DNA of 64,000 nucleotides from Candidatus Promineifilum breve (lineage in GTDB: Bacteria; Chloroflexota; Anaerolineae; Promineifilales; Promineifilaceae), in contig NZ_LN890655.1 in assembly GCF_900066015.1 (NCBI RefSeq), forward strand, positions 496,001-560,000, read 5' to 3'. The stretch's first letter is position 1. Each line of letters starts with the position of its first letter. Position numbers and translations under genes: made by a program. Positions 52,701 to 63,501 of the stretch are shown piece after piece. The notes beneath the pieces are model-generated. The model saw nothing but the letters and a program-made list of their open reading frames with translations. It was not told where the DNA came from and made no database searches.

Positions 52701-53843
52701 ATGGAGCCGGCCGCTCAAAGCAGAACGCAAAACCAACCCGCAGCCACCATGACCCACCGCGCCCTTACCGTCGCCCTTTATATGATTATCAGCCTAATAG
52801 CCGTCGTTATCGCCGCACTTCTATGGTTCTACGGACCGATCGCCGGCGGCCTATTACGCGCTAGTGATGGCGAAGGGCCGACGGCCGCCGCAACAAACGG
52901 CGCGACCACGCTCGCCCAATCGGCTTCAACGGGCACGGGCGGCCGCCCGGCGGGCAGTTTAGGCCCGGCGCCATTGCCGACCATTCGCCCCTGGCCGACC
53001 ATGCAGCACACGCCGACGGCCATCCCGGCTACGGCTATCCCCCCGACGGTCGTTCCGACAATCGCCCCGGCCCTAGACCCACCGCAACAGGTTCCCGTCA
53101 ACGGCATCCCTTGGGAGAGTATCGTCGTGATGCCGCCCGACGTGGCGACTCATGCGCGAGAAATTTTCGCCGCCGGGCAGGCCCTCGGCCGCAACCCCCA
53201 CGCCTATAGCAAAGTGGGCGACAGCACGACCGAGAACCCCCATTTCCTGGCGCGCTACGACGAGGGGCCGTATAACCTCGGCCCTTTCGCCCATCTGCAA
53301 GCGGTGATCGACCACTTTCACGGCTCACATGGGCGTGACAGCATCGCCGTGCGCATCGGCCTGCACGCCTGGACGGCCAACGACCCGACCTGGGCCGAAG
53401 CCGGCATCTGCCTGCCGAATGAGACGCCGGTGCAGTGCGAGATTCGCGTCCACAATCCGGCCGTCGTCTTCATCCGCCTGGGAACCAACGACGTGGGGGT
53501 GGGCGGGATGTTCGACGCCAATATACGCCAGATCGTCGAGACGGCCATCGCCGCCGGGGTCATCCCCATCATCGGCACCAAGGGCGACCGGCACGAGGGC
53601 AGCAACGAGAACAACGACATCCTGCGCCGCATTGCCGCCGACTATCGCCTCCCCCTCTGGGATTTTGACCTCGTCGCCAACACCTTGCCCGGCCGTGGCC
53701 TGGACGTTGACGCGGCCCACATGCTCACCTTCTACGCCCACGACTACAACGACCCCACCGCCTTCACCCGCGGCCACGCCATGCACAACCTGACGGCATT
53801 AATGGTGCTGGATGCGGTCTGGCGCGAGGTCATCCAGCAGTGA
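52701..53843 (+). CDS. SGNH-hydrolase-type surface protein, copy 1
   Basis: A 380-residue protein anchored by one N-terminal helix (about 22-48), then a Thr/Pro/Ala linker and an SGNH-type domain. Block I is AYSKVGDSTTENPHF (putative nucleophile Ser), block III is FIRLGTNDVG, and the Asp/His pair is in GLDVDAAHML. Such proteins are acyl-esterases or, next to MBOAT proteins, transfer acetyl groups to polymers (AlgX/PatB-like). It is the first of four similar genes ending in an MBOAT gene. The ATG at 52749 is an alternative start. Function inferred from motif and context. Confidence 0.75.
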   Translation: MEPAAQSRTQNQPAATMTHRALTVALYMIISLIAVVIAALLWFYGPIAGGLLRASDGEGPTAAATNGATTLAQSASTGTGGRPAGSLGPAPLPTIRPWPTMQHTPTAIPATAIPPTVVPTIAPALDPPQQVPVNGIPWESIVVMPPDVATHAREIFAAGQALGRNPHAYSKVGDSTTENPHFLARYDEGPYNLGPFAHLQAVIDHFHGSHGRDSIAVRIGLHAWTANDPTWAEAGICLPNETPVQCEIRVHNPAVVFIRLGTNDVGVGGMFDANIRQIVETAIAAGVIPIIGTKGDRHEGSNENNDILRRIAADYRLPLWDFDLVANTLPGRGLDVDAAHMLTFYAHDYNDPTAFTRGHAMHNLTALMVLDAVWREVIQQ

Positions 53844-54975
53844 CGAGCATCGCGTGATAAACACAAACCAATCCCATCCCGGTGCGAGGCACTTTCCGAA
53901 GTGCCTTGCACCTCTCTTCCTCCCCCATCCCGGTACGAGGCACTTTCTGAAGTGCCTAGCACCTCTCTTCCTCATCTGCCTACTCTTCACAGCCTGCACT
54001 CCCACCCCACCCAATACCCCCGACCAGGCAGCCGACACAATACCCACCACCCCACCCACCCGCCCCGCCCCAGTCATAGAACAAAACGCCGGGCCAACCC
54101 CATCCGCGGCCACCGCCACCGCCCTCGCCGGGCCGACCGCCACCCCCGCCCCGGCCACGGCCGAACCCACGCCATCCCCAATCCCGCCAACGCCGGAGCC
54201 GTCGCCCACGCCACTTGGCCCGCAAGACATCAACGGCATCCCCCTCACCACCATTGCCCCGATGGACGCGGCAACAGCGGCCAACGTGCGGGCGATCTAT
54301 GAACGCGGCCAGGAACTCGGCCGCGACCCCAACGCCTTCTCCAAGCTGGGCGACAGCACGCTGCTCAATCCCCACTTCCTGGGGCCGTTCGACCTGGGCG
54401 ATTACACGCTGGGCGACTTCGGCCACCTTCAGCCGACGATTGACCGCTGGCGCGGCTCATTCGAGCGCCATGGCATCGGCACTCACTTCGGTCTGCACTC
54501 CTGGACGGTCTTTGACCCGATGTGGGCCGATGAGGAGTGGTGCGAAGCGGGCGAACATCTGTTGGCCTGCGAGGTGCGGCTGCAAAACCCCAGCGTCCTG
54601 TTCGTGCGCCTGGGCAGCAATGACGCCGGCGCGCCCAGCGGCTTCCGCTTCAACGTCAAGGAAGTCATCGAATACGCCATCGACAACGGCATCATCCCCA
54701 TCATCGGCACCAAAGCCGACCGCTTCGAGGGCAGCAACGAGAACAACGACATCCTGCGCGCGCTGGCGGCCGAGTACCACGTGCCCCTCTGGGATTTCGA
54801 CCGGCTGGCCGACACGCTGCCCGGCCGCGGGCTGGACACCGATCAGGTTCATCTCATTATCGACGAACTACCCCACGACTTCACCGACCCGGCCGCCTTC
54901 CAGCGCGGCCACGCCATGCAAGACCTTTCGGCTCTCATCACGCTGGATCAGGTGCGGCGAATCATCGAAGAATGA
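53812..54975 (+). CDS. SGNH-hydrolase-type lipoprotein, copy 2, with repeat-derived N-terminus
   Basis: About 387 residues. The SGNH domain has AFSKLGDSTLLNPHF, VRLGSNDAG and DTDQVHLI. It is tethered by a lipobox (LLFTAC) and a long Thr/Pro linker. The first 50 codons cross two 51-bp copies of a palindromic repeat (53876-53977), read in frame as 17-residue units HPGARHFPKCLAPLFL and HPGTRHFLKCLAPLFL. The second copy runs straight into the hydrophobic core of the signal peptide. The true start is uncertain: ATG 53812 overlaps the previous gene by 32 bp, and GTG 53854 is the alternative. Confidence 0.7.
   Translation: MRSGARSSSSDEHRVINTNQSHPGARHFPKCLAPLFLPHPGTRHFLKCLAPLFLICLLFTACTPTPPNTPDQAADTIPTTPPTRPAPVIEQNAGPTPSAATATALAGPTATPAPATAEPTPSPIPPTPEPSPTPLGPQDINGIPLTTIAPMDAATAANVRAIYERGQELGRDPNAFSKLGDSTLLNPHFLGPFDLGDYTLGDFGHLQPTIDRWRGSFERHGIGTHFGLHSWTVFDPMWADEEWCEAGEHLLACEVRLQNPSVLFVRLGSNDAGAPSGFRFNVKEVIEYAIDNGIIPIIGTKADRFEGSNENNDILRALAAEYHVPLWDFDRLADTLPGRGLDTDQVHLIIDELPHDFTDPAAFQRGHAMQDLSALITLDQVRRIIEE
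53876..53977. repeat. Two tandem 51-bp REP-like palindromes inside a coding region
   Basis: Cores at 53881-53912 and 53932-53963 fold as GGTGCGAGGCACTT/AAGTGCCTTGCACC-type stems with TCCG or TCTG loops. They belong to the family of the hairpin at 25176. Period 51 bp, that is 17 codons, so the frame of the host gene is preserved. Confidence 0.85.
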
Positions 54976-55026
54976 GCCGGACGCCGCTCCCGCAAACCCG
55001 ATTAACCCGGACCGGCTTGTTTCAAC

Positions 55027-55032
55027 TATAAT
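55027..55032 (+). promoter_or_regulatory. -10 element upstream of the small lipoprotein gene
   Basis: A perfect TATAAT in the 89-bp gap after the second SGNH gene, without a good -35; it could start a separate transcript for the rest of the cluster. Confidence 0.5.
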
Positions 55033-55064
55033 CACCCGAAATCAAGGAGATGCAGTTCAATCAC

Positions 55065-55472
55065 ATGAAGCGCGCGCAAACTTTACTTCTACTCATTCTG
55101 CTGCTCGGTTGCCTGTCGGCTTGCGCCGGCGGGGGCGGCGGCGACACGGCCGACGACCGCCCGGCCATCGCCGTGGAGGATTATCTGACCGCCAAAGTGT
55201 CGGGCAATGCCGAGGCCATCCGCGCCGGGCTGTGCGCCGAGATGGAAGCCGTCCTGGAGCGCGAACTGCGCACCTTCGAGAGCGTCAGTAACGCGGCCAT
55301 CGAGGGGATGAGTTGCGCCAGCGACGACCCGGCGGCCACCACCGAGACGGCTGTGCGCTGCACCGGCCAGATCGTCGCCCTCTACGGCACCGAGGAAACG
55401 ACCTTCCCGCTGGCCGCCTACCGCGCCGTCAACGAGGACGGCGAATGGAAGTGGTGCGGCGAGACGGAGTAA
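55065..55472 (+). CDS. Small lipoprotein of unknown function
   Basis: A 135-residue exported protein with signal peptide MKRAQTLLLLILLLGC and lipobox LSAC, followed by a Gly-rich spacer and a compact domain with three further cysteines (GLCAEME, GMSCAS, VRCTGQ) plus a final WCGE. It resembles small NTF2-like or DUF4878-type lipoproteins in size and layout, but I cannot assign a family. An ATG at 55050 lies immediately after AAGGAG, too close for normal initiation, so 55065 is a tentative choice. It sits between SGNH copies 2 and 3. Confidence 0.7.
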   Translation: MKRAQTLLLLILLLGCLSACAGGGGGDTADDRPAIAVEDYLTAKVSGNAEAIRAGLCAEMEAVLERELRTFESVSNAAIEGMSCASDDPAATTETAVRCTGQIVALYGTEETTFPLAAYRAVNEDGEWKWCGETE

Positions 55473-55492
55473 GAAGAAGAAAACCACAGATT

Positions 55493-55511
55493 TCGCAGAT
55501 TTCGCAGATTA
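55493..55511. repeat. Short CAGATTTCG direct repeat
   Basis: CAGATTTCG is repeated with an 8-9 bp period just after the small lipoprotein gene. Its role is unknown; similar intergenic strings are common in bacterial genomes. Confidence 0.4.
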
Positions 55512-55538
55512 AGAAGGGATTGAACAGGGCCATTCTTC

Positions 55539-55658
55539 ATGCGCAACCGCTTATTCAACCGCGAGAATCTCCTGGCCGTGCTGTTGTGTCTGCTGGTCGT
55601 CTTGTTGCTCATCGTCGCGTCCGATAGCTCGCCGCAATGGATCTATCAGGGGTTCTAG
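55539..55658 (+). CDS. 39-residue membrane micropeptide coupled to SGNH copy 3
   Basis: A short open frame encoding a 39-residue peptide: basic MRNRLFNREN, a single hydrophobic helix (about 11-27, LLAVLLCLLVVLLLIV) and a polar tail SSPQWIYQGF. The stop overlaps the start of the third SGNH gene by 22 bp, which suggests coupled translation. The charge-helix-aromatic tail design and the overlap argue that it is real. It may assist the MBOAT/SGNH acylation machinery, as small membrane peptides do in dlt operons; this is inference. There is no strong Shine-Dalgarno site. Confidence 0.5.
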   Translation: MRNRLFNRENLLAVLLCLLVVLLLIVASDSSPQWIYQGF

Positions 55659-56686
55659 CTCGATTATCGGCGGCGGTGATTGTCCTGCTGCTGGCCGGTT
55701 GTGGCGCGGTGGCCTCGGAGACGGCCGTCATGCTGCCCACCGTGGCCCAGACGGCGCTGCCGCCCTTCGTGCCCACCATGGCCCCGCCGTCCCCTACGCC
55801 CGCGCCGACGCTGCCCACATCCACCCCCCTGCCGACGGCCACCGCGACCGCCACGCCATCGCCGACAACCACGCCCTCCCCGGCGGCGACCGAAACGTCT
55901 ATTGCCACGACCACCGCGACGCCCGACCCGGCGCAACAAATCAACGGCGTACCTTTCAGCGCCATCGCCGTCATCCCGCCCGACGTAGCCGACCACGTGG
56001 GCCAGATCGCCGCGCGCGGCCGGGAGCTGGGGCGCAACGCCAACGCCTTCTCCAAGCTGGGCGACTCCGGGGTGCTCATCGAGTCCAACCTGACCCGCTT
56101 CGACAACGGCCCTTCCACGCTTGGCCCTTATGAGTTCCTTCAACCAACCGTCAGCCACTTTGCCGGGTCGTGGGCGCGCTATGGCGTGGGGGCGCGGGTG
56201 GCCCTGACGACCATCGGCACCTTTGATCCCCAATGGGCCGACGCGGAATGGTGTCTGCCGGGCGAGCACTTGCTGGCCTGCGAGATTCGGCTGCACAATC
56301 CGGCCGTCCTGGTCATTCGTCTGGGAACCAACGACGGCCGCGCCGAACTGTACGAACGTTATATGGCTCAAATCATCGAATTCACCATCGAAAACGGCGT
56401 CATCCCCGTCCTGGGGACGAAGGCCGACCGCTTCGAGGGGGACGACAGCATCAACGCCGCCACGCGCCGCCTGGCGGCCACCTATCGCGTGCCGCTGTGG
56501 GATTTCGACGCCGTCGCCGCCACGCTGCCCAACCGCGGGCTGACCGACGACCAGGCCCACCTGACGGTCTACGGCCGCAACGACTACACCGACCCGGAGA
56601 CGCTGCAACGCGGCTACCCGGCCAGCGATTTATCAACTCTGGTCGTCCTCGATGCCATCCGGCGCATCGCGTTGACGACCCCCTGA
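55637..56686 (+). CDS. SGNH-hydrolase-type lipoprotein, copy 3
   Basis: A 349-residue lipoprotein with lipobox LLAGC, a Thr/Pro linker of about 60 residues and the same domain as its neighbours. Motifs are AFSKLGDSGVLIESN (Ser), VIRLGTNDGR and TDDQAHLT. The repeated phrase GVIPVLGTKADRFEG, the switch to LWDFD and the C-terminal LVVLDAIRRI are shared with the other copies. It starts inside the micropeptide gene and is followed 13 bp later by copy 4. Confidence 0.78.
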   Translation: MDLSGVLARLSAAVIVLLLAGCGAVASETAVMLPTVAQTALPPFVPTMAPPSPTPAPTLPTSTPLPTATATATPSPTTTPSPAATETSIATTTATPDPAQQINGVPFSAIAVIPPDVADHVGQIAARGRELGRNANAFSKLGDSGVLIESNLTRFDNGPSTLGPYEFLQPTVSHFAGSWARYGVGARVALTTIGTFDPQWADAEWCLPGEHLLACEIRLHNPAVLVIRLGTNDGRAELYERYMAQIIEFTIENGVIPVLGTKADRFEGDDSINAATRRLAATYRVPLWDFDAVAATLPNRGLTDDQAHLTVYGRNDYTDPETLQRGYPASDLSTLVVLDAIRRIALTTP

Positions 56687-56699
56687 CCGATTTCAAGCC

Positions 56700-57737
56700 A
56701 TGCATCAACGCCTTTACATCGCTCTCGTCCCCTTGCTGTTAGCCCTGACCGCCTGCGGCCGCGTCGGCTCAGCCGCGCCGGCCGCCACCGCGTCGGTGGC
56801 CACCGCGACGGCTGCGCCGATGACCGCCACCGCCACAGCGACCGCCTCTGCCACGGCCACGGCCCTACCAACCGCGACCGCGACCAACCCGCCGCCGACG
56901 GCAACCTACGTCCCGATCCTCACGCCGTCGGCAACGCCCCCACCACCTACGCCTATCCCCACGCCCGACCCGGCGTTTTTCGTCAACGGTGTGCCGGTCG
57001 AGCATTTCATCGTCTTCCCGCCCGAAGTCGAGGCCAATGTGCGGCGTATTTTCGCCCATGGGCAGGAATTGGGACGCAATCCCCATGCCTTCTCCAAAAT
57101 CGGCGACAGCATCTCCCTGACCAGTCATTATCTGGCCCGCTTCGATCAGGGCGATTACCAGTTGGGCATCTATGAGCGCCTCCAACCGGCCATCGATCAT
57201 TACGCCCACTCCTACGAACGGTTCGGCATGGCCGTGCGCATTGGGCTGCACGCCTGGATCGCCTACCGGCCGGGGCTGGCCGACCCGGAGCAATGCGACT
57301 CCGACGAGCACATGGTCGCCTGCGAGATTCGGCTGCACAACCCCAGCGTCTTCCTCATCCGTCTGGGCACCAACGACACCGCGCCGGGCGACGCCTACGA
57401 GCGCGCCATTCGCCACGCCATCGAATACAGCATCCGCAATGGTATCATCCCGGTTCTTGTCACCAAGTCCGACCGTTTCGAGGGCGACAACCGCCACAAC
57501 GAGACGATGCGCCGGCTGGCGACCGACTATGAAGTGCCGTTGTGGGACTTCGACGTCATCGCCGGCACATTGCCCGATCGCGGGCTGGGCGGCGACGACG
57601 TGCACCTGACGATGTTCGGCCACAACGACTACAGTGATCCGGCCACGCTGTCATTCGGCTATCCGCTGAGCGATTTGACCGGCCTGATGATGCTCGACGC
57701 CATCCGCCGCACGGTCACGGAAGGCGACGCCCAGTGA
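56700..57737 (+). CDS. SGNH-hydrolase-type lipoprotein, copy 4
   Basis: A 345-residue lipoprotein (signal MHQRLYIALVPLLLAL, lipobox LTAC) with a Thr/Ala linker and an SGNH-type domain. Motifs are AFSKIGDSISLTSHY, LIRLGTNDTA and GGDDVHLTMFG. Its TGA overlaps the GTG start of the MBOAT gene, so it is the copy most tightly coupled to the acyltransferase and probably its main partner. Confidence 0.8.
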   Translation: MHQRLYIALVPLLLALTACGRVGSAAPAATASVATATAAPMTATATATASATATALPTATATNPPPTATYVPILTPSATPPPPTPIPTPDPAFFVNGVPVEHFIVFPPEVEANVRRIFAHGQELGRNPHAFSKIGDSISLTSHYLARFDQGDYQLGIYERLQPAIDHYAHSYERFGMAVRIGLHAWIAYRPGLADPEQCDSDEHMVACEIRLHNPSVFLIRLGTNDTAPGDAYERAIRHAIEYSIRNGIIPVLVTKSDRFEGDNRHNETMRRLATDYEVPLWDFDVIAGTLPDRGLGGDDVHLTMFGHNDYSDPATLSFGYPLSDLTGLMMLDAIRRTVTEGDAQ

Positions 57738-59281
57738 CGCTTAATCTGTGGGCGATTCTGGTTATTGGTCTGGCCGCGGTGGTCTATGCCGCCCTCGTGC
57801 CCGGCCGGTGGCGGGGGTGGGCCATCCTGCTGGGCAGCGTCGTCGCCCTGTTCTGGCTCCAGGCACCGCTCGCGCCGCGCTACGCCGACTTCCTGCTGCC
57901 TTGCGCCACCATTGCGATTGGCGTGGCCGGGTGGTGGCTATCCCGACCGCCGCGCCGCGCGTTCATGGCCCCGGCGCCGGGGCAGCCGATAGATCGGGAT
58001 GATCAGACCGGCGGCCAGGAATTCACCATCTCCCGCGTCTACGTCCGGGATGATTGGCTGACCCTGCTGATCATCCTGACGCTCATCCTGGGGCTGGCTC
58101 TCTTTCGCTACGTTGGGGTCGATTTTCGTCTGACGGCTTCGCGGCCGCCGTCGCCGCTCTTCGTGGCCGTCACGGCGCTGGAGGTGGGGCTGGTCTTCGC
58201 CGCCCTGGCCCTCATCCTGCGCCGCCTGCCGCACCGCGCCGTGCTGACCGGGGCCATCGTGGCCTTCGTCCTGCTCTTCGTCGCCGCCAAATACCCGCCG
58301 GCGACCGCGTTCATCGCCGGTTGGTGGCGCGGCCTCACCGGGCAAGACGTGACCCTGGCCGCGCCGTCGGACCTGGCCTGGCTGGGCTTCTCCTACGTCG
58401 CCTTCCGCATCATCCACACCCTGCGCGACCGGCAGACCGGCATACTGCCCGACCTGTCCCTGCGCGCCTATCTCAGCTACATCCTCTTCGCTCCGGCCAT
58501 CGTGGCCGGGCCAATCGACCGGGCCGAGCGTTTCCTGCTCGATTATCAGAATCTACCCCTTCTGCGCGCCTTCGATCCGGCGCGTTGGGGGCTGGGCCTG
58601 TGGCGCATCGGCCAAGGGCTGTTCAAGAAGTTCGTCATCGCCGATACGCTGGCCCAGGGGCTATCACTGACGCCCACACTGGCCGCCCAGACGGAGGGGG
58701 CCGGGGCCTTATGGCTGCTGCTCTTCGGCTATGGGCTGCGGCTCTACTTCGACTTCGGCGGCTACACCGACATCGCCATCGGCCTGGGCATCCTCTGCGG
58801 CATCCGCCTGCCGGAGAACTTCGATCGGCCCTATACGCGCAGCAACATCACCGCCTTCTGGCAAAGCTGGCACATCACCCTCGGTAATTGGGCGCGGTTC
58901 TACATCTTCACACCCCTCTCGCGGGCGCTGCTGCGGCGGCGCAAACCGGGCGCGTCGCCCCTCTTGACGCCCACGACCATCGTCCTGACCTCCCATCTGG
59001 CGACGATGATCGTCATCGGCCTGTGGCACGGCATCAGTTGGAATTTTCTCATCTGGGGCCTGTGGCACGCCGCCGGTCTTTTCATTCACAAGCAATGGAG
59101 CGACCGGACGCGCAAGTGGTATCGCGGCCTGCAAGGGCGGCCATGGCCCAGACGCATCTGGGCGGCCACCGGCTGGGCGTTGACGATTCTTTTCGTCATG
59201 CTCGGCTGGGTCTGGTTCCTGATGCCTACGGTGGATGGGGCGTTGGCGGTGTTTATGAAGCTTGTCGGCGTAAGCGGCTGA
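57734..59281 (+). CDS. MBOAT family O-acyltransferase
   Basis: A 515-residue membrane-bound O-acyltransferase of the AlgI/DltB/PatA type, moving acyl groups (usually acetyl) across the membrane to an extracellular polymer. About ten membrane segments are visible. Motifs are GPIDRAERFL, YGLRLYFDFGGYTDIAIGLG, the DRPYTRSNITAFWQSWH block and the catalytic His in GLWHGISWNFLIWGLWH. The start is GTG 57734, coupled to SGNH copy 4. With four SGNH partners and a small membrane peptide this looks like a complete cell-surface acylation cluster; the polymer is unknown. Confidence 0.93.
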   Translation: MTLNLWAILVIGLAAVVYAALVPGRWRGWAILLGSVVALFWLQAPLAPRYADFLLPCATIAIGVAGWWLSRPPRRAFMAPAPGQPIDRDDQTGGQEFTISRVYVRDDWLTLLIILTLILGLALFRYVGVDFRLTASRPPSPLFVAVTALEVGLVFAALALILRRLPHRAVLTGAIVAFVLLFVAAKYPPATAFIAGWWRGLTGQDVTLAAPSDLAWLGFSYVAFRIIHTLRDRQTGILPDLSLRAYLSYILFAPAIVAGPIDRAERFLLDYQNLPLLRAFDPARWGLGLWRIGQGLFKKFVIADTLAQGLSLTPTLAAQTEGAGALWLLLFGYGLRLYFDFGGYTDIAIGLGILCGIRLPENFDRPYTRSNITAFWQSWHITLGNWARFYIFTPLSRALLRRRKPGASPLLTPTTIVLTSHLATMIVIGLWHGISWNFLIWGLWHAAGLFIHKQWSDRTRKWYRGLQGRPWPRRIWAATGWALTILFVMLGWVWFLMPTVDGALAVFMKLVGVSG

Positions 59282-60903: not shown

Positions 60904-62100
60904 ATGCAACTGATCGATCACATCGAACACCGCCTGGCCCTCCCCGGCGACGACGAAACGCTGCGCAAGCGCAAGGTGGCGGCCTTCTTCGCCGGGCTGA
61001 TGGGCGTCATCACGGCCCTCCTTTTCACCGTCCTCTACTTCATCGGCGATGCGCCACTGCTGGCCTGGCTCTTTCTGCTCACCTTTGTCTGGACGTCCAT
61101 CACCCTCGCCATCCTCTGGCTGCGCCCGCGCGCTTATTATTGGGCGGTTCTGGTGACCGCTCTCTATGTCACCATCCACCCCTGGGTCGTGGTCGTGGCC
61201 TCCGGCGGCTACCGATCCGGGCTATTACCGATGCTATGGGCGCTGATCGGTCCCGGTGTGGCCGTCGTGCTGATTGGCATTCGCCCCGCGCTCTTCAATG
61301 CCGCGCTGTACGTCGTCCTGGCCGCCGTCGCCGCGTTGCTCGATCCGTGGGCCGCGGCCCATGCCCCCCAACTGCCGGAGTGGATCCGGCTGACCATCGG
61401 CCTGATCAGCGCAGTCATACCGGGCATGATGGTCGTTTTGATCAGTCTGTTCCTCTTTCGACAGGTGGAGCGGGCGCGGATGCAGGCCGACGCGCTGCTA
61501 CGCAACATCCTGCCGTCGCCGGTCGCCGACCGGCTGAAGATCGATCCCACCTCCATCGCCGAAAGTTTCAACGAGGTGACAGTGCTCTTCGCCGACATCG
61601 TGGGCTTCACCCGGATGAGCGCCGCGGCCGACGCGCGCGAAGTCGTCGGCCTGCTCAATGCCATCTTTTCGGATTTTGATGGCCTGGCCGATAAACACGG
61701 CCTGGAAAAGATCAAGACCATCGGCGACGCTTATATGGTCGTTGGCGGTCTGCCCGAACCGCGGCCGGATCATCTGGAAGCGGTGGTGGCCTTTGCCTTC
61801 GACGCCTTGGAAGTGATGAAGAAATACCGCGCCTGGAACGGCGAAGCGATCGGCCTGCGCATCGGGATCAACACCGGCCCCATCGTGGCCGGGGTCATCG
61901 GCCGGCGCAAATTCATCTATGACCTATGGGGCGACACGGTCAACACGGCCAGCCGCATGGAATCCTTCGGGCTGGAGAACGTCATCCAGGTGACCAAAAC
62001 GGTACGCGACAAGCTCGACGGCCGCTATACATTCGAGGAGCGTGGCCCGTTCGAGGTCAAGGGCAAGGGGATGATGACAACCTACCTGCTGAATAAATAG
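60904..62100 (+). CDS. Membrane-bound class III adenylate cyclase
   Basis: A 398-residue protein. About six membrane helices (roughly 25-190) lead into a class III cyclase domain. Metal Asp residues lie in VLFADIVGFT and KIKTIGDAYM, adenine-selecting Lys in EKIKTIGD and Asp in DLWGDTVNTASRM, and the transition-state Asn/Arg in VNTASRM. All catalytic residues are present, so cAMP production is expected. A tandem REP sits where a ribosome-binding site should be, and none is recognisable. A terminator follows the stop directly. Confidence 0.93.
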   Translation: MQLIDHIEHRLALPGDDETLRKRKVAAFFAGLMGVITALLFTVLYFIGDAPLLAWLFLLTFVWTSITLAILWLRPRAYYWAVLVTALYVTIHPWVVVVASGGYRSGLLPMLWALIGPGVAVVLIGIRPALFNAALYVVLAAVAALLDPWAAAHAPQLPEWIRLTIGLISAVIPGMMVVLISLFLFRQVERARMQADALLRNILPSPVADRLKIDPTSIAESFNEVTVLFADIVGFTRMSAAADAREVVGLLNAIFSDFDGLADKHGLEKIKTIGDAYMVVGGLPEPRPDHLEAVVAFAFDALEVMKKYRAWNGEAIGLRIGINTGPIVAGVIGRRKFIYDLWGDTVNTASRMESFGLENVIQVTKTVRDKLDGRYTFEERGPFEVKGKGMMTTYLLNK

Positions 62101-62170: not shown

Positions 62171-63040
62171 TTACTCTCTCGGCTCGGCCGCCGGTCGCGA
62201 TTTCATCGGCAATATCTGCGGCGCGTGATTGCCATCCAGCCCCAGGACGTTGATGACCTCGGCATTGGAGGGAATCACGTACTTGGTGCCGCTGCCCACC
62301 ATAATCTTTTCGATCACCTCGAAACGCCGCAGGTCTTTGGCGCGGTCGGTGAAGTTTTTCTCGGCGGCCAGGGCCACCACTTCAATCGACTTGGCCTCCG
62401 CCTCGGCTCGCAACAGGCGGGCCTGGGCCTCGCCTTCCGCGCGCAGGATGGCCGCCTCGCGCACGCCCTGCGCCTCCAGGATGACGGCGCGCTTCTCGCG
62501 CTCGGCCTTCATCTGCTTGCTCATGGCGTTGGTGATGTCCTGCGGCGGGTCGATCTTCTGCAATTCGACCTTGGTCACCTTGACACCCCAGGGGTTGGTG
62601 GCCTCGTCCAGCACCTCGCGCAGCGACATATTGATGATGTCGCGCGCCGTCAGCGTCTCGTCCAGCTGCTTGTCGCCGATGAGATTACGCAGGTTGGTCT
62701 GGGCCAGCGTCGTGGCCGCGAAGTTAAAGTTGGAGATCTCAAACTCGGCCTTCACCGGGTCGACGACCTTGTAATAGATGACCGCATCGACCGTCACGAC
62801 GACGTTGTCGGCGGTGATGACGCTCTGCGGCAAGACGTTGATGAGTTGCTCGCGCATGTCCACGCGTATAAGGTTGTCGATGAACGGGATGAGGAAGACC
62901 AGACCGGCATCGACCGTGTGGTCGTAGCGGCCCAGACGGATGACCAACCCCTTCTCATACTGTTTGATGACCCGCACGCTGAAGGCCAGCGCGGCGATGG
63001 CAATCAGAAAGATTAGGGTTAAAACGATGATGGTAAACAT
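62171..63040 (-). CDS. SPFH/Band 7 (stomatin-like) membrane protein
   Basis: A 289-residue flotillin/stomatin-type scaffold. An N-terminal hydrophobic helix (about 3-22) is followed by the SPFH domain (GLVIRLGRYDHTVDAGLVF to DPVKAEFEI) and an Ala/Glu/Arg-rich coiled coil (about 185-230). It is immediately downstream of an NfeD gene (11-bp gap), the standard pairing. The proteins are thought to organise membrane microdomains or protease complexes. Confidence 0.94.
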   Translation of the reverse strand: MFTIIVLTLIFLIAIAALAFSVRVIKQYEKGLVIRLGRYDHTVDAGLVFLIPFIDNLIRVDMREQLINVLPQSVITADNVVVTVDAVIYYKVVDPVKAEFEISNFNFAATTLAQTNLRNLIGDKQLDETLTARDIINMSLREVLDEATNPWGVKVTKVELQKIDPPQDITNAMSKQMKAEREKRAVILEAQGVREAAILRAEGEAQARLLRAEAEAKSIEVVALAAEKNFTDRAKDLRRFEVIEKIMVGSGTKYVIPSNAEVINVLGLDGNHAPQILPMKSRPAAEPRE

Positions 63041-63051
63041 GTTTCTCCTGC

Positions 63052-63501
63052 TTATTTGCTCAACTTGCGGACGATGACGGTGACACCATCAATGGCCTCA
63101 ATGGTGACCGCATCGCCTTCATACAGCACTTCTTCGGCCGAGGCGCGCCATTTTTCATCGTCGATGCGCACAATGCCGGCCGTGTCCGGGTTGATACCCC
63201 GCTCGACAGTGCCGGTCGCGCCGATCACCTTGTCGATATTCGTCTTCTTGGTGACGACGGTGATCTTCTGGCGGATGCGCTTGCGGCCGACGGCGATGTA
63301 GAGAACGCTCAGGCTCGTCGCTACCAACAGCATCAGCAATTCGCTGCCGGTAAATAGACCGACGAAACCGGCGAGAACCATGATCGAGCCGATCAGCAAC
63401 AGGTCGAAGCCGGTCTGGATACCGAGCAACAACTCGGCCAGCACCATGAGCAGACCAAAGACGACAAACAACTGCGGAAGGATAGCCGTGAGAGAGTCCA
63501 T
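63052..63501 (-). CDS. NfeD family membrane protein
   Basis: A 149-residue short-form NfeD protein: three membrane segments (about 8-28, 33-50, 52-70) and a C-terminal OB-fold domain (IGATGTVERGINPDTAGIVRID to DGVTVIVRKL). It is the first gene of the NfeD-SPFH pair and is preceded by a minus-strand TATAAT. Confidence 0.93.
   Translation of the reverse strand: MDSLTAILPQLFVVFGLLMVLAELLLGIQTGFDLLLIGSIMVLAGFVGLFTGSELLMLLVATSLSVLYIAVGRKRIRQKITVVTKKTNIDKVIGATGTVERGINPDTAGIVRIDDEKWRASAEEVLYEGDAVTIEAIDGVTVIVRKLSK

Follow-up and report, generated by a model that had tools for sequence, protein, structure and literature searches.

Introduction

The closest described relatives of the system reported here pair an MBOAT acyltransferase with an SGNH protein and use a short FXYXXF motif as acyl shuttle. 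PatA acetylates the Tyr of its own C-terminal FXYXXF hexapeptide (PMC12148441). For DltB, the motif, with its Tyr as acyl carrier, belongs to the separate microprotein DltX (PMC12148441). The same 2025 PatAB paper describes non-Dlt MBOAT-SGNH systems as having no DltX-like microprotein, their motif being fused to the MBOAT. MBOAT-SGNH systems exist for alginate and cellulose, and OatA uses a Tyr-to-Ser acyl relay (PMC12148441).

Here we describe a cluster of Candidatus Promineifilum breve (phylum Chloroflexota, class Anaerolineae) in which the motif appears to have a gene of its own. The window, meaning the whole 64,000-nucleotide stretch analysed, covers positions 496,001–560,000 of contig NZ_LN890655.1, and the cluster occupies 52701–59281 of the window on the forward strand (Table 1). 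The host genome (5.03 Mb) is 99.96% complete. We consider the cluster a probable split-shuttle MBOAT-SGNH system for envelope O-acylation, its motif residing on a separate microprotein that feeds several SGNH transferases. Gene content, motifs, conservation and co-occurrence are read from sequence and the SGNH fold from a structure model; from these we infer the chemistry, the donor, the transfer steps, the acceptors and the complex. An original prediction, made from the letters of the window, had proposed four tandem SGNH proteins ahead of one MBOAT, and the open reading frames and motifs are as it claimed.

An unfused MBOAT and a separate microprotein

The window MBOAT has a DltB-like core and no shuttle tail. 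It matches PF03062 at 71.9 bits (cut-off 27), and the Pfam MBOAT search of the whole genome returns this gene alone. Among solved structures, DltB is nearest to it in sequence, and the DltB histidines align with His380 and His432, which all of 12 members share. The protein ends in MKLVGVSG, with no hexapeptide motif. In the MBOAT tree, 40 sequences of this type, hereafter the clade, form one group (support 99) apart from fused MBOATs and from DltB. DltB and the clade join on long branches, which makes any choice of sister group tentative. A C-terminal shuttle motif is missing from all 68 clade MBOATs and is fused to 65 other MBOATs of the tree set.

A clade profile scores its members at 438–830 bits. 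All of them are from Chloroflexota, and one is from the cultured Leptolinea tardivitalis YMTK-2; the MBOATs ranked below them reach at most 212 bits. Among 400 sampled genomes of the phylum, 33 have a clade MBOAT, all in one class. Fused tails also occur on distant MBOATs from the window's own family (L067-L073). As a separate observation, such distant MBOATs stand paired side by side in some same-family genomes, with fused FVYQGF or FVYQSF tails (L069-L071).

The missing motif has a candidate counterpart in a 39-aa microprotein, which runs from a basic start through one transmembrane helix to the ending DSSPQWIYQGF. By sequence, WIYQGF resembles the FXYXXF acyl-shuttle motif. Same-family relatives encode a microprotein in the same place ending in PQWIYQ(G/N)F, and the ending across relatives is [W/F]IYQ[G/N]F. 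Across 54 aligned microproteins, which span several families of the class, P32, I35, Y36, Q37 and F39 are invariant. The first nine residues carry a net charge of about +1.6 and the last fourteen one of about −1, as expected for an N-in/C-out helix. By its pattern of nucleotide change the gene is under purifying selection, with mean proportions of synonymous (pS) and nonsynonymous (pN) differences of 0.77 and 0.19 over 190 pairs. Conservation, pN/pS and co-occurrence with the MBOAT rule out a chance open reading frame. No Pfam or NCBIfam model matches this family of 35–45-aa genes. An hhalign comparison with fused MBOAT tails gives a probability of 79%, a similarity that is only suggestive because unrelated proteins that combine a transmembrane helix with an end motif can also align.

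Microprotein and unfused MBOAT occur together. In the window's family, each of the 28 genomes with an unfused MBOAT has a single microprotein, whereas the microprotein is absent from all but one of the 24 genomes without that MBOAT, the exception being 79% complete (Fisher p 7e-14, uncorrected for kinship). A genome with two clade MBOATs has two microproteins. In the sequences compared, the fused and the separate motif exclude each other. Lipoprotein, microprotein and MBOAT genes are consecutive in most loci read, and the same scan applied to Streptococcus DltB loci, as a positive control, recovered DltX ending in FIYNEF.

Of the tested genomes in which no microprotein stands beside the MBOAT, all but one (Chloroflexi J038) have the gene at another place. 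Apparent absences correspond to contig ends or to a separate locus (G031, G032, G035, G009, G013, G017, G046, G399); at L094, where no microprotein was seen, the locus sits at a contig end. The count of 57 of 68 in the clade-MBOAT scan includes one bare WIYQGF stub at a contig start (L060), not a full gene; that genome carries a full copy on another contig. One genus keeps all parts but has the MBOAT on a different contig from its cluster of four SGNHs, lipoprotein and microprotein (G031, G032; L160, L161, L044, L046).

This pattern bears on whether the microprotein might be just a structural subunit of the MBOAT, with acyl groups reaching the SGNHs another way. Such a role would fit its sequence, which is not that of a DltX. 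Yet the invariant residues cluster at the motif and include the Tyr that is the acyl carrier in PatA and DltX, and the presence of the microprotein mirrors the absence of a fused motif. We regard a purely structural role as highly improbable.

Comparison with known O-acylation systems

The arrangement most resembles Dlt, the system of DltB, DltX and DltD that D-alanylates teichoic acids. Both have an MBOAT without its own motif, an SGNH partner and a single-span microprotein, separately encoded, whose end is aromatic-x-Tyr-x-x-Phe. By analogy the window MBOAT and microprotein seem to act in the manner of DltB and DltX. Membership in Dlt is nonetheless ruled out by the DltB, DltX and DltC tests. 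The window MBOAT scores 204.8 bits against a DltB equivalog cut-off of 375. DltX (PF12459) has no match in the genome, while the B. subtilis and L. lactis controls match, and the microproteins of relatives likewise have no Pfam DltX match. A profile comparison of the microprotein with DltX aligns only the last 14 residues. The best DltC score in the genome is 15.6 bits (cut-off 52.35), and no window protein matches the DltD family. The several SGNHs and the additional NTF2-like lipoprotein are further differences from Dlt.

Peptidoglycan O-acetylation by PatA and PatB offers a second parallel. It too combines an MBOAT with a membrane-tethered SGNH bearing Ser-Asp-His motifs and uses a hexapeptide Tyr as the presumed acyl carrier. 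As no DltC-type carrier was found here, acyl-CoA is the likely donor. The two systems differ in that PatA bears the motif on its own C-terminus (PMC12148441) whereas here it has a separate gene, and in that there is one PatB and here four SGNHs. OatA shares the SGNH fold but has it fused to an AT3 membrane domain, in place of an MBOAT with separate SGNHs.

Alginate and cellulose acetylation (AlgI/AlgJ/AlgX/AlgF and Wss) likewise give the MBOAT more than one partner protein. Their MBOAT type has a fused tail, unlike the window MBOAT (PMC12148441), and polymer synthesis genes do not adjoin the cluster described here. A search of the window proteins for Alg/Wss partner families in Pfam and NCBIfam, including AlgX/AlgJ-type SGNH and AlgF, gave no match at E up to 1.

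Four old SGNH lineages

The four SGNH copies form one family, copies 1–3 being about 45–50% identical to copy 4. All keep GDS in block I, G(T/S)ND in block III and DxxH in block V, and share an invariant Cys pair. Their anchoring is as originally proposed, one transmembrane and three lipoprotein: copy 1 has an N-terminal transmembrane helix, and copies 2–4 have a lipobox Cys (FTAC, LAGC and LTAC, by direct reading). Pfam Lipase_GDSL_2 matches each copy at 22–31 bits, under its curated cut-off of 32.9 (E 2e-4 to 6e-7). An AlphaFold2 model of copy 4 has an SGNH fold (predicted local distance difference test score, pLDDT, 87.6), so that both fold and triad motifs, whose lack would have told against the original prediction, are present. 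In the whole genome the full-length members of the SGNH profile are the four of this cluster and no others; the remaining weak matches cover the N-terminal linker part alone.

Several SGNHs per MBOAT occur in related genomes. SGNH and MBOAT genes stand together in a wide range of relatives, so that the lack of synteny that would also have told against the original prediction is not seen. Clusters in the family hold 1–4 SGNHs, some having a single one (L054, L055, L056, L059), and 12 genomes across the class have 2–5 SGNHs of this kind for one or two MBOATs. Together with the 4:1 ratio of the window, these counts support the view of the original prediction that one MBOAT serves several SGNH partners.

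The four copies are old. In the SGNH tree they fall into four position-specific groups common to several genera (for copy 1, 13 rows with support 98), which means that the four have long been kept separate. Recent tandem duplication is ruled out by the tree, since the copies group with same-position copies of other genomes. Redundant amplification without division of labour could account for a copy number that varies from one to four among related genomes, but each copy groups with its counterpart in other genera and not with its neighbours, and none of the four has lost its catalytic motifs; we find it improbable. Old, position-specific orthology favours distinct roles for the four copies, as far as sequence can tell.

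Distinct roles need not all be transfers. One or two SGNHs might be transferases and the others esterases that remove acyl groups, as Ape1 does on acetylated peptidoglycan, giving an on/off cycle. The fold search with the copy 4 model ranks esterases as high as transferases (acetylxylan esterase Z 16.4, OatA Z 14.7, Ape1 Z 14.6, PatB Z 14.5), and at the level of a model it cannot tell the two apart; the age and divergence of the four groups are also compatible with such a cycle. Against it, the four proteins are closely related and share their block motifs and invariant Cys pair, and the clusters with a single SGNH make an in-cluster esterase dispensable. We think an on/off cycle unlikely, if worth keeping in view.

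Domains fused to relatives point to an acceptor for one lineage. A LysM domain is present in copy-1 orthologues from other genera; the window copy 1 has a transmembrane anchor and no LysM. LysM binds N-acetylglucosamine polymers such as peptidoglycan. Because of these LysM domains, the copy-1 lineage probably acts on peptidoglycan. Further SGNH members carry SH3_3 domains. The original prediction had several positions or polymers acylated and deacylated at the cell surface; of this, several polymers are hinted at by the LysM domains of other genera, and deacylation stays a conjecture.

A secreted exopolysaccharide or sheath polymer could instead be the acceptor. MBOAT-SGNH precedents for alginate and cellulose lend this weight (PMC12148441), and long Pro/Thr linkers could carry SGNH domains past the wall. 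Telling against it are the LysM domains, the lack of any adjoining polysaccharide synthesis or export gene, and window proteins without an Alg/Wss family match. An exopolysaccharide acceptor therefore seems doubtful to us, and peptidoglycan the better candidate for the copy-1 lineage.

A proposed relay with one shuttle and several clients

In the relay that we propose, the MBOAT would draw on the cytoplasm for an acyl group, probably the acetyl of acetyl-CoA, and pass it to Tyr36 in the WIYQGF of the microprotein on the outer face. The microprotein would then present it to several tethered SGNH transferases, one held by a transmembrane helix and three as lipoproteins, each of which would receive it on its catalytic Ser. 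Each SGNH would place the group on its own acceptor polymer, which for the copy-1 lineage is probably peptidoglycan. The NTF2-like lipoprotein may be an accessory or scaffold. Because a detached shuttle can, by hypothesis, visit several SGNHs, one MBOAT could serve all four, and the coupling of a split shuttle to a many-SGNH arrangement suggests a reason for the splitting: one shuttle, several clients.

Several observations weigh against this relay. The first motif residue is Trp in 53 of 54 microproteins, as opposed to the Phe of known motifs. In the most distant relatives within the class (L089-L095, L199-L228), the SGNHs often have Cys as nucleophile (GDC for GDS) and lack the GxND block. 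Some SGNH partners are thus no classical Ser transferases; judged by their motifs, those proteins may be Cys enzymes or non-catalytic partners with another role there. The Chloroflexi bacterium J038 assembly (L086) has a clade MBOAT, an SGNH and the lipoprotein, and in it a microprotein is undetectable. Most clade genomes are metagenome-assembled.

The clade appears to contradict the statement that non-Dlt MBOAT-SGNH systems do without a DltX-like microprotein (PMC12148441), and would add a second case in which the relay is split, one whose microprotein has no detectable relationship to DltX in sequence. A partial coverage of the literature gave no description of a microprotein in a non-Dlt MBOAT-SGNH system, though an earlier mention is possible. 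We are evenly divided on a broader proposal: that a new family of acyl-shuttle microproteins, not DltX by sequence, defines O-acylation across this class of Chloroflexota, with a freely exchanging detached shuttle letting one MBOAT serve many acceptors. The finding predicts envelope O-acylation in Anaerolineae, including the cultured L. tardivitalis YMTK-2.

Organization of the locus

The SGNH array is not continuous. The original prediction was right about the number of copies and missed that the lipoprotein and microprotein genes break the array between copies 2 and 3. It also had the last SGNH translationally coupled to the MBOAT. The GTG start of the MBOAT and the TGA stop of copy 4 do overlap, by 4 bases, which makes coupling plausible.

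Table 1. Genes of the MBOAT-SGNH cluster, in window positions
Feature	Position	Strand	Remarks
SGNH copy 1 (s1, 380 aa)	52701..53843	+	N-terminal transmembrane anchor, Pro/Thr-rich linker, SGNH domain with GDS, GTND, DAAH
SGNH copy 2 (s2), lipoprotein	53812..54975	+	Listed open reading frame begins within copy 1; alternative start GTG 53854
NTF2-like lipoprotein, 140 aa	55050..55472	+	Five invariant Cys including lipobox Cys; conserved microprotein neighbour
Microprotein, 39 aa, one transmembrane helix, C-terminal WIYQGF (acyl-shuttle-like)	55539..55658	+	22-base overlap with copy 3 start
SGNH copy 3 (s3), lipoprotein	55637..56686	+	
SGNH copy 4 (s4), lipoprotein, predicted SGNH fold	56700..57737	+	
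MBOAT acyltransferase, 515 aa, GTG start 57734	57734..59281	+	DltB-like core, His380 and His432, no C-terminal hexapeptide

An AlphaFold2 model gives the 140-aa lipoprotein a predicted NTF2-like fold (pLDDT 88.6). Among the solved structures closest to it in fold are PBP2a and the S1C-NTF2 part of RsgI9, and a sequence search of the PDB with the lipoprotein profile returned nothing useful. An Anaerolineaceae cluster (L085:3499-9419) combines two NTF2-like lipoproteins with three SGNHs, of which one is encoded on the other strand.

Genes for a lactate/malate dehydrogenase and a methyltransferase stand next to the cluster. Downstream, at 60904-62100 and 62171-63501, lie a class III nucleotide cyclase gene and an SPFH/NfeD pair, both ordinary. 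The palindrome GAGGCACTTTCYGAAGTGCCT occurs twice at 53886-53957, within the part of SGNH copy 2 that encodes its N-terminal signal. Genome-wide there are only four exact copies, arranged as two pairs (C1:549886/549937 and C1:1849632/1849677).

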